NCBI GenBank assembly: GCA_002898215.1 | Contig: BEIF01000001.1 | Span: forward strand, 1,277,602-1,341,601 | Direction of reading: 5' to 3' | DNA length: 64,000 bases | DNA from: a bacterium HR29 | GTDB taxonomy: Bacteria > Chloroflexota > Dehalococcoidia > Tepidiformales > Tepidiformaceae | Shown here: in pieces, positions 59,523-62,443 of the stretch | How the letters are laid out: the number at the start of each line of letters is the position of its first letter | Numbering within the stretch: the stretch's first letter is position 1 | Translations under genes and position numbers: made by a program | The notes under the pieces: generated by a model | What the model saw: the letters and a program-made list of their open reading frames with translations, nothing else | Told to the model about the DNA's origin: nothing | Databases searched by the model: none

Positions 59523-61291
59523 AGCTCCACGAGCCGAACGTTGTAGATGCCGTCGATGGCTTCGATCTGGGCGAGCTGCTCGTCGGTGGGCCGCTCGTCG
59601 AGGCCGACCACCATCACCGCCCGGCCGCGGCGCTCGCGGCGACCGACCTGCATCGAGCTGATGTTGATGTCGAACTGGCCGAGCATGGTGCCAAGCCGAC
59701 CGATCATCCCCGGCCGGTCCTCGTTGTCGCACACCAACAGGTAGCTGCCGGGTTCGGGGACGAGGTCGATATCCATCCCCATGAGCTTCACCAGGTTGAG
59801 CTGGCCCCGGTGGGTGGTGCCTGCCACATCCACGACCGAGTCGCTGGTATGAACACTGAGATGGATGAGGTTCACGTAGACCTCGTGGGAGCTGTTGAGG
59901 CGCTCCTGGATGACCCAGCCGCGGCTCTGTGCCACCAGGCTTGCGTTGACGATGTTCACGTTCTCTTCGCTGATGGGCTTGAGCAGGCCCTTGATGACGG
60001 AGGCCTTGATGGGGGTGGTATCGTGCTCCGCGACCTCCCCGTAAAGGTCGATCTCGATGCGGGAGATCGTCCCGCGCACGAGCTGGGTGGCGATAGCGCC
60101 GATGGCCTCGCCCACGCGCATGTACGGGCCGAGCACGCGCAGGGTCTCCGGGGGAAGGGCAGGAGCGTTGACCGCGTAGCGGGCGGGCCGGCCGGCGAGT
60201 ACCTCGACGATCTGTTCCGCCACATCCAAGGCGACCCGCTCCTGGGCCTCGGCCGTGGAGGCGCCCAGGTGAGGCGTGAGGATGGCATTCGGCGCATGCC
60301 GGAGCGGATGGTCGGGAGGGGGCGGCTCCTGGGTGAAAACGTCGACCGCCGCGCCGGCCACTCTCCCATCCCGAAGCGCTTCGGCGAGCGCCGCCTCGTC
60401 GACGATGCCGCCCCGGGCGACGTTGATGATGCGCACACCCGGCTTCATCCGCGCGAGCTCGGCCGCACCGATGAGCCCTTGCGTCTGCTGCGTCATGGGA
60501 GCATGGAGGGAGATGAAGTCGGACTCCCGCAGCAGCGTGTCGAAGTCGACCGATTGCACCCCCAACTGCTCGGCCCGCTCGACAGGGACGTAGGGGTCGT
60601 AAGCGAGCACCCGCATCTCGAGGGCGATGGCGCGCCGCGCAACCTCGGTGCCAATTTTCCCCAAGCCGACGATGCCGAGGACCTTGCCTCGCACTTCGGT
60701 GCCGATGAAGCGGCTCCGCTCCCAGCGACCCTCGTGCATCGAAGCGTCGGCGGCGGGAATGTGACGGGCCAAGGCAAGGAGGAGGGCGATGGTGTGCTCG
60801 GCAGCTGCGATGGTGTTGCCCTGCGGCGCGTTCACGACGATCACGCCCCGTTCGGTAGCCGCTTCGAGGTCGATGTTGTCGACGCCGACACCGGCGCGGC
60901 CGATGACGACGAGGTTGCGGCCTGCCTCGATGATGCGGCGGGTAACCTTCGTCTCGCTGCGGACGACGAGGGCGGCGAAATCGGGGATGATGGCCGCCAG
61001 CTCGTCTTCACGCAATCCGGTTCGCACCTCCACCGTTCCCACGGAGCGGAGCAGCTCGATGCCTTCGGCGGCAATGGGGTCGGCGACAAGGATTGCGGGG
61101 CGGCCGTTCGCTGGCATGGGAAAGAGCGACTCCTTCAGCTTCTGCAACGCCAGTTCCACCGTGCCCGGAATGCGCGCCTTCCCCGACTCCCACCGGCTCA
61201 CGGTCGCTTGGTCCACGCCGAGGGCCTGGGCCAAGGCTGCCTGCGAGAGGCCGAGGGCGCGACGGGCGGCAAGGAACTCTCGAGCGTCCAT
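59519..61291 (-). CDS. serA: 3-phosphoglycerate dehydrogenase with N-terminal XRE helix-turn-helix
   Basis: 590 residues. Residues 1-55 are a Cro/CI-type helix-turn-helix: FLAARRALGLSQAALAQALG and VDQATVSRWESGKARIPG. SerA begins near residue 59. Its NAD-binding loop GLGKIG is at 209-214, active-site Arg293 in NVARGGIVDE, Glu322 in FTQEPP and His341 in LTPHLGAS. The intervening ASB domain and a C-terminal ACT domain (about 515-590, from LLVCDNEDRPGMIGRLGTML) complete the long-form enzyme of serine synthesis. The frame is continuous, with no stop between the domains. The ATG at 61291 abuts a perfect dyad covering its own -10 box. Such a fusion is not the standard SerA layout; a self-repressing, serine-sensing enzyme is my inference. 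Confidence 0.93.
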   Translation of the reverse strand: MDAREFLAARRALGLSQAALAQALGVDQATVSRWESGKARIPGTVELALQKLKESLFPMPANGRPAILVADPIAAEGIELLRSVGTVEVRTGLREDELAAIIPDFAALVVRSETKVTRRIIEAGRNLVVIGRAGVGVDNIDLEAATERGVIVVNAPQGNTIAAAEHTIALLLALARHIPAADASMHEGRWERSRFIGTEVRGKVLGIVGLGKIGTEVARRAIALEMRVLAYDPYVPVERAEQLGVQSVDFDTLLRESDFISLHAPMTQQTQGLIGAAELARMKPGVRIINVARGGIVDEAALAEALRDGRVAGAAVDVFTQEPPPPDHPLRHAPNAILTPHLGASTAEAQERVALDVAEQIVEVLAGRPARYAVNAPALPPETLRVLGPYMRVGEAIGAIATQLVRGTISRIEIDLYGEVAEHDTTPIKASVIKGLLKPISEENVNIVNASLVAQSRGWVIQERLNSSHEVYVNLIHLSVHTSDSVVDVAGTTHRGQLNLVKLMGMDIDLVPEPGSYLLVCDNEDRPGMIGRLGTMLGQFDINISSMQVGRRERRGRAVMVVGLDERPTDEQLAQIEAIDGIYNVRLVEL

Positions 61292-61310
61292 GCCATGCAG
61301 TATGCATGGC
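61292..61310. promoter_or_regulatory. Operator-like dyad O1 over the serA -10
   Basis: GCCATGCA (61292-61299), GTA, TGCATGGC (61303-61310): a perfect 8-base inverted repeat that ends at the base before the serA ATG and covers the -10 box CATACT. Confidence 0.75.
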
Positions 61311-61327
61311 CTCCACCGTTCATGCAA
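61299..61327 (-). promoter_or_regulatory. Leaderless-type promoter of serA
   Basis: Minus-strand TTGCAT (61322-61327), exactly 17 bases, CATACT (61299-61304), then 7 bases to the ATG at 61291. A GGAGG at 61310-61314 lies 18 bases from the ATG, too far for normal use, which fits leaderless initiation. Confidence 0.5.
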
Positions 61328-61336
61328 ACTGCATGA
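61320..61336. promoter_or_regulatory. Operator-like dyad O2 over the serA -35
   Basis: TCATGCA (61320-61326), AAC, TGCATGA (61330-61336): a perfect 7-base inverted repeat with the same CATGCA-N3-TGCATG core as O1. The centres are 27 bases apart. It covers the predicted -35. Confidence 0.75.
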
Positions 61337-61348
61337 CGGCGCGGGGGT

Positions 61349-62443
61349 TCAGGCGGAGGCCGCGGCCCGCGCTTCGGTCAAGAGCCGCTCCACCACGTCG
61401 AGGGCTTCGCGGACGTCCTCCCGGTTCACCCAGCCCATGTGGCCGACGCGGAAGATCTTCCCTTCGAGCTTTCCCTGGCCGCCGCCCAGTACCACGCCGA
61501 ACTCCTCACGCGCGCGGCGGGCGAGAGCACGTCCGTCGACGCCCTCCGGCCACCACACGGCGGTCACGGTGTCGGACGCGAACCGCTCGTCGACCGGGAC
61601 CAGCTTCAGCCCCATCGCCTTGACGCGCTCGCGGGTGTAGGCGGCCACTTCCCGGTGCCGGGCGTAGATGCGCTCCAGCCCTTCGGCGCGCATGAGTTCG
61701 AACGCCTTGTCGAGGGCGAAGTACACGGAGACGGCGGGCGTCCACGGGTTCTGGTTCCGTTCGAGCGAGTCGCGGTGGCGCTTCGCATCGAAGTAGAACT
61801 TCGGCATGCGCGACCGCTCGTACGCGGCCCAGGCGCGGTCGCTCATGTACAGGAAGGCGAGCCCCGGAGGAACCATCCATCCCTTCTGGGAGCCGCTGAC
61901 CACCACGTCGAGGCCCCACTCCTCGACCGGGCAGGGAATGGAGCTCACGCTGCTCACGCCATCCACGAGGATGAGGCGGTTCCGCTTCCGGACTTCGTCC
62001 GCGATCGCCTGAAGCGGGTTCGTCACGCCCGTCGAGGTTTCGTTGTGAGTGACGAGCACGGCGACGATCCCTGGGTCGGCGTCGAGCCGGCGGCCGATCT
62101 CCGCCGGGTCGGCGGCCTCACCCCATTCAGTCTTGTACCACTGCACATCGGCACCATACGCCGCGGCGATGTTTCCGAAGCGGTCGCCGAAGGAGCCGAT
62201 GGACACGGCGAGCACGCGGTCGCCCGGGCTCAAGGTGTTCACGATGGCGGCCTCCAGCCCGCCCGTGCCCGAGGTCGTGATGGAGAGGACGTCGCGAGAA
62301 GCGCCGAAGACCCAGTTCAGTCCGTCGGTGACGCGGCGGAGGATAGCGCCGAACTCCGGCCCGCGGTGGTTGAGCATCTGCCCTGCGGCAGCCTGAAGGA
62401 CCTCGGGGGGACAGGGGGTGGGACCAGGGATGCGAAGGTTCAC
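61349..62443 (-). CDS. Class V aminotransferase (alanine-glyoxylate/serine-pyruvate type)
   Basis: 364 residues of fold-type I PLP enzyme. It starts RIPGPTPCPPEVL, has TTSGTGGLEAAIVNTL for cofactor binding, LVTHNETSTGVTNPL, LVDGVSSVSS with the cofactor Asp, and Lys187 in VVSGSQKGWMVPPGLAF. Enzymes of this subgroup move the amino group among serine, alanine, glyoxylate and pyruvate; a phosphoserine role is also proposed in organisms that lack classical SerC. Lying 57 bases before serA on the same strand, it is probably part of serine/glycine metabolism. GTG start with a CGGGAG ribosome site. Confidence 0.9.
   Translation of the reverse strand: MNLRIPGPTPCPPEVLQAAAGQMLNHRGPEFGAILRRVTDGLNWVFGASRDVLSITTSGTGGLEAAIVNTLSPGDRVLAVSIGSFGDRFGNIAAAYGADVQWYKTEWGEAADPAEIGRRLDADPGIVAVLVTHNETSTGVTNPLQAIADEVRKRNRLILVDGVSSVSSIPCPVEEWGLDVVVSGSQKGWMVPPGLAFLYMSDRAWAAYERSRMPKFYFDAKRHRDSLERNQNPWTPAVSVYFALDKAFELMRAEGLERIYARHREVAAYTRERVKAMGLKLVPVDERFASDTVTAVWWPEGVDGRALARRAREEFGVVLGGGQGKLEGKIFRVGHMGWVNREDVREALDVVERLLTEARAAASA

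Follow-up and report, generated by a model that had tools for sequence, protein, structure and literature searches.

XRE-SerA, a phosphoglycerate dehydrogenase with a DNA-binding head, and its predicted operators across the serA promoter in Tepidiformaceae

The fusion protein and its closest described systems

Few enzymes are known to repress their own gene through a DNA-binding domain of their own. PutA carries such a domain at its N-terminus, represses its own gene and, in E. coli, binds its own promoter region only (PMC5293562); it is classed as a single-target trigger enzyme, trigger enzymes in E. coli numbering five by one count (PMC8249747). The window, by which we mean the whole 64,000-nucleotide stretch of the bacterium HR29 genome analysed here, encodes a protein that resembles PutA in that a metabolic enzyme is joined to an N-terminal DNA-binding domain, likewise with predicted operators at its own promoter: by sequence, two dyads lie on the -35 and -10 hexamers in 21/21 genomes that carry the fusion. 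PutA, however, is catabolic, membrane-switching and equipped with a ribbon-helix-helix domain, whereas this protein, XRE-SerA, is biosynthetic and has an XRE head; the two are not homologous, and Pfam places XRE-SerA outside the PutA family, giving phosphoglycerate dehydrogenase (PGDH) domains and HTH_3 instead of proline dehydrogenase and P5C dehydrogenase. In the open-access papers searched we found neither an HTH-SerA fusion nor a DNA-binding SerA described.

The head itself is alike in sequence and fold to the 434 and P22 c2 repressors (PDB 1sq8, 1r63, 1adr, 3jxb), which also have short dyad operators, but the C-terminal part of XRE-SerA is an enzyme and the operator core ATGCA-N3-TGCAT is not theirs; no phage context was seen around the gene. 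HTH_3 (PF01381) matched residues 8–42 at 40.2 bits against a gathering cut-off of 23, assigning the head to the XRE/HTH_3 family. An AlphaFold model showed a compact XRE domain with helices at residues 3–13, 17–24, 28–36 and 43–56 (pLDDT 89), followed by a linker with pLDDT <50 in the full-protein model. Foldseek returned XRE-type domains as the best matches to the head, with probabilities near 1 and E-values of 0.02–0.08, the latter because the domain is short. Within the head, V26, D27, Q28, T30, S32, R33 and W34 are invariant.

The remainder of the protein is a type 1 phosphoglycerate dehydrogenase (TIGR01327, 663.9 bits; cut-off 454) in which R293, H341 and E322 are invariant in the SerA alignment, so that one open reading frame encodes a complete enzyme, with the full PGDH domains, together with a DNA-binding domain. 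Residues 65–589 align end to end with M. tuberculosis SerA1 (1ygy, 3dc2), to which XRE-SerA adds a 56-residue HTH head and a flexible linker. SerA of M. tuberculosis, which is of the same type, is a tetramer with serine bound at the ACT domain (PMC6630544). Three of its four reported serine contacts are kept (D463, R464 and N481, here D525, R526 and N543), the fourth having changed from Y461 to N523. An effect of serine on DNA binding by XRE-SerA is plausible but may be altered, and the sequence does not allow its direction to be predicted.

Table 1. Features of the serC–serA region, in window coordinates
Feature	Position	Strand	Description
XRE-SerA fusion gene, 590 aa	59519..61291	-	HTH_3, 2-hydroxyacid dehydrogenase, PGDH intervening domain, ACT (Pfam, NCBIfam TIGR01327)
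XRE head, residues 1–56	61124..61291	-	Recognition helix VDQATVSRWE; flexible linker at residues 57–62
Proximal operator dyad O1 (predicted)	61292..61310	.	GCCATGCA-GTA-TGCATGGC; perfect 8+3+8; overlaps -10, abuts start codon
-10 hexamer CATACT	61299..61304	-	Ends 7 nt before ATG; CANNNT in relatives
RNA hairpin around O2	61314..61341	-	Stem with one bulge in the window genome; outer stem covaries in relatives; probable serC terminator
Distal operator dyad O2 (predicted)	61320..61336	.	TCATGCA-AAC-TGCATGA; perfect 7+3+7; overlaps -35
-35 hexamer TTGCAT	61322..61327	-	17 bp from -10; TTG invariant in 21/21 though O2 N3 varies
serC-like class V aminotransferase gene	61349..62443	-	Pfam Aminotran_5; upstream of serA, same strand

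Two dyads and a promoter in the same bases

The initial annotation had described two perfect dyads, 27 bases apart in a 57-base gap, coinciding with hexamers spaced by 17 bases, and each of these details was confirmed when measured. The dyad centres lie at 61301 and 61328, 27 bp apart, and the 57-bp gap runs on the minus strand from the serC-like stop at 61349 to the serA ATG at 61291, reading TCATGCAGTTTGCATGA ACGGTGGAG GCCATGCATACTGCATGGC ATG. A search of the 2.34-Mb genome for the core CATGCA-N3-TGCATG gave exactly two occurrences, both within this gap, compared to 0 in the control. When one mismatch was allowed in ATGCA-N3-TGCAT, the same genome yielded 10 sites against 10 for a reversed-pattern control, a count at control level that leaves the exact pair standing alone in the genome. 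The dyad pair at serA is more than chance.

The wider CATGCA-N3-TGCATG regulon that had been proposed was not found in these counts, the only exact genomic cores being those at serA. Few exact sites lay away from serA in the fused genomes, and those that we read were mostly within coding sequence; a search at the 27-bp spacing found no second double operator except for a 3-mismatch match in one genome (G022). The operator thus looks private to serA. At three loci (L086, L088 and L089, in G022, G020 and G025, respectively) a PadR-family gene and a small divergent gene are separated by an ATGCA-N3-TGCAT dyad, which also occurs in genomes without a SerA head and is probably a PadR operator with the same core. 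The 3-mismatch match in G022, like the ATGCAAATTGCAT sites found in G020 and G025, has this position; we rejected all of these as SerA operators and regard them as probable PadR sites.

Column counts across the 21 fused genomes, including the window genome, revealed two patterns of conservation overlaid on each other. The ATGC(A) and TGCAT arms are fixed in both dyads, with the 5-bp arms nearly invariant. At the same time, A at -11 and T at -7 are invariant despite the variable N3 of the proximal dyad, whose variants all read CANNNT (CATACT, CAGAAT, CAAAAT, CACAAT, CATAAT, CATTCT), and the last base of the distal N3 is T in all 21, yielding TTGCAT. In 14 genomes the hexamer spacer, derived from the dyad centre spacings, measures 17 bp; five genomes have 18 bp and two have 16 bp. 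The match to consensus is weak (TTGCAT, 3/6 to TTGACA; CATACT, 4/6 to TATAAT), and a consensus promoter scanner made no call on these hexamers; we accepted the promoter as real because the hexamers are conserved in relatives. Judged by this conservation, the serA promoter is overlaid on the two predicted operators, with two constraints superimposed. The -10 ends 6–10 nt from the ATG among fused genomes, so that the serA transcript probably has little or no leader. Two other readings of the gap were set aside: the 8-bp arms of the proximal dyad as the operator unit, of which relatives conserve the inner 5 bp only, the remainder being local, and a TTG at 61327 as an alternative serA start, conservation beginning from the ATG at 61291.

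Relatives with and without the head, and the probable reader of the dyads

We searched 37 relatives from the same family, which is placed in the class Dehalococcoidia of the Chloroflexota (PMC10284905). Twenty have the fused serA, 16 a headless one, and one (G024) is without a full serA. Close relatives with the fusion but no dyads, named at the outset as evidence that would count against the proposal, were not seen, the dyads being kept in 20/20 fused relatives and absent at serA in 16/16 headless ones. Counting the window genome, the fused head is found in 21 genomes of 11 genera, and in 21/21 both dyads stand directly before the ATG with centres 26–28 bp apart; the core of O1 is exact throughout, and O2 is present in all, with one mismatch in three (G001, G004 and G022). 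In the headless genomes, which represent seven genera, there was no dyad at serA (0/16) and no exact site on the serA contig. Upstream of most fused genes lies serC, but in three genomes (G003, G014 and G015) the neighbour is another gene, by eye a HicB-like gene, a response regulator and another gene, respectively, and the dyads are still present, showing that they belong to serA and not to the end of serC. In G003 (locus L012) it is the HicB-like gene that separates serC from the fused serA, and the dyads are unchanged. Heads on other long SerA frames in the class (e.g. G230, G277, G055, G059) were rejected, the upstream extensions being either noise or serC sequence read out of frame.

When a maximum-likelihood tree was built from SerA without its head, the fused and headless states had to interchange five times, two of these changes being forced by well-supported branches; fused G004, for instance, stands beside headless G009 with a branch support of 100/98. 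A single clade of fused serA was rejected (AU p=0.0005, lnL 57 lower), which means that there was more than one joint change of head and dyads. This repeated joint change, through loss or transfer, is supporting evidence for a link between the two, not proof, and with two well-supported independent pairs only, a sign test is powerless.

A second HTH-SerA was observed in another family of the same class, f59 (L065:135-1928, minus strand, in G190; L066:81-1874, minus strand, in G200). Its N-terminal HTH differs in sequence (GWKFKALAERIGVTNRHLSEVLNGRARLT) and scores just under the HTH_3 cut-off; a candidate dyad, TCTGTA-CTAA-TACAGA, lies ahead of a TTGACT hexamer in G190 and recurs with one mismatch in G200. 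The sister genera are headless, and the f59 gene looks like an independent fusion.

The headless serA mostly begins directly at the serC stop or no more than a few bases from it (10 genomes read directly). Such genomes are without the entire intergenic promoter, so joint loss alone cannot identify the binding protein, and this leaves a little room for the dyads being operators of another serine-metabolism regulator, with the SerA head having another role or being a relic. XRE paralogs that might take this part are present in the window genome. We compared recognition helices with the dyads found beside their genes. The stand-alone XRE paralogs of the family, including the one nearest to the head, have the helix VRQQTVSEWE, and upstream of their genes we found a different dyad, TACACGG-N2-CCGTGTA and variants of it, in 9/11 family genomes read, with no ATGCA dyad there in those genomes. 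At the loci of these small paralogs (L197 in the window genome, contig C2 168200-169300, and L199–L207) the conserved dyad is apparently their own operator, and stand-alone XRE paralogs in the family seem as a rule to regulate themselves.

An independent specificity test, which is the sole use that we make of the comparison, came from plasmid partition proteins. When about 85,000 genomes were scanned with a profile of the head, the hits included ParB proteins of Mycobacterium, Rhodococcus and Nocardia that are unrelated to SerA and share the core SQxAIAxxLGVDQATVSR. ATGCA-N3-TGCAT palindromes were present at 8/8 of these ParB loci, in 2–23 copies of the form GTGATGCA-N3-TGCATCAC. These ParBs thus have the same helix and the same 13-bp core as XRE-SerA, but belong to another protein family, serve plasmid partition and sit in arrays rather than at two promoter sites. 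Up to 23 copies flank parB on actinobacterial plasmids or contigs, L164, L176 and L188 among these loci, and from their position the arrays are probably parS.

Nine further plasmids were added to the comparison. ParB helices of the form LGV[DN]Q[AS]TVSR go with the ATGCA palindrome, FHQSTVSR (pGD21-2) with GATGCG-N3-CGCATC, MSQTTVHR with GATTC and LSQPTVSR with TATTC; a partial exception is the Gordonia pPAE01 ParB (L193), which has the same helix, mostly TTATGC-N5-GCATAA and one exact site only. Upstream of about a dozen, mostly alphaproteobacterial, XREs with the helix VDQ[AG]T[IV]SRWE no ATGCA dyad was found, and these proteins need not be autoregulated. That another helix goes with another dyad points to the SerA head as the reader of ATGCA-N3-TGCAT. 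A separate regulator is accordingly improbable: serA would be its sole target, as the genome holds no other site; the nearest paralog goes with a different dyad; ParBs that share the helix of the head sit in arrays of this very core; and a relic head is contradicted by the conservation of its helix residues.

Predicted autorepression by SerA

We consider it very probable, on the strength of these comparisons, that O1 and O2 are operators for SerA's own XRE head, and that SerA acts as an autogenous, single-target repressor. This is what the initial annotation had suggested in reading the dyads as operators of the head with negative feedback, and both the co-occurrence of head and dyads and the helix-motif match in ParBs and paralogs lend it support. 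Repression is proposed because the dyads cover the -35 and the -10. Dimers, or head pairs of the SerA tetramer, would occupy each dyad and block RNA polymerase at the serA promoter when SerA is abundant, such that excess SerA represses serA and the serine pathway receives no more of its first enzyme than is needed. More weakly, the ACT and intervening domains, which bind serine in related enzymes, may modulate DNA binding, and one protein would then exert feedback on both enzyme activity and transcription; for a biosynthetic gene, a pathway product in the role of co-repressor would make sense. The centre spacing of 26–28 bp corresponds to about 2.6 turns, placing the dyads on roughly opposite faces of the DNA. 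Rigid bridging by a tetramer as the reason for this spacing is not favoured, because the dyads are out of phase and because 26, 27 and 28 bp equal promoter spacers of 16, 17 and 18 bp.

That XRE-SerA sits on the dyads as an activator or a structural factor rather than as a repressor is very unlikely: the weak hexamers do recall promoters that depend on an activator, but the dyads lie right over the -35 and -10, with bases that the polymerase needs among those covered, and activators usually bind at the -35 or upstream of it.

The distal dyad also lies within an RNA hairpin. RNA folding of the gap in four genomes gave structures better than all shuffles in three of them (z -3.5 to -6.2, the window genome having z = -3.5), with the fourth at z -1.95. 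In many genomes, the distal dyad grows to a 13–16-bp stem, the outer part of which has eight covarying pairs, with 50 doubly changed cells compared to 21.5 in shuffles, and 85% of its cells paired compared to at most 44% in slid controls. Covariation is absent from the inner 5 bp, whose sequence is fixed in both dyads. A sequence-fixed core inside a covarying stem allows protein recognition to be told apart from RNA pairing, and the outer stem is probably a hairpin ending the serC transcript, with the protein site nested inside. Genomes without the extended stem often have, by eye, a separate hairpin just upstream. The folding scores and the eight-pair covariation do point to a hairpin selected in several genera, but that the dyads act as RNA without any protein, as a distal terminator or attenuator and a proximal start-codon hairpin, is highly improbable, with an inner 5 bp fixed beyond what pairing demands, a proximal dyad that sits on the -10, ahead of most if not all of the transcribed sequence, with no covarying extension, and an identical core that comes twice at promoter spacing; RNA pairing is best kept as an addition to the protein sites, a terminator around the distal operator.

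In many relatives the upstream operator is nested in the hairpin that probably terminates serC, so that serA would have its own promoter, with no read-through from serC. A more far-reaching combination can be put forward only tentatively, as somewhat less probable than its converse: SerA may be a serine-sensing DNA-binding enzyme, one ACT-controlled oligomer that both carries out the first step of serine synthesis and shuts off its own promoter; HTH-SerA fusion may have arisen more than once in the Chloroflexota, the f59 protein having another head and another candidate dyad; and the distal operator may be part of the terminator of the upstream gene.

The pairing of an LGVDQATVSR helix with the ATGCA half-site, found also in the unrelated ParB family, offers a usable piece of the HTH recognition code. 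The repeated joint change of head and operator is a natural experiment, and since the family has a cultured member, Tepidiforma flava, the proposal is directly testable. If it is true, serine synthesis across much of the family would be controlled by the first enzyme of the pathway, without a separate regulator.
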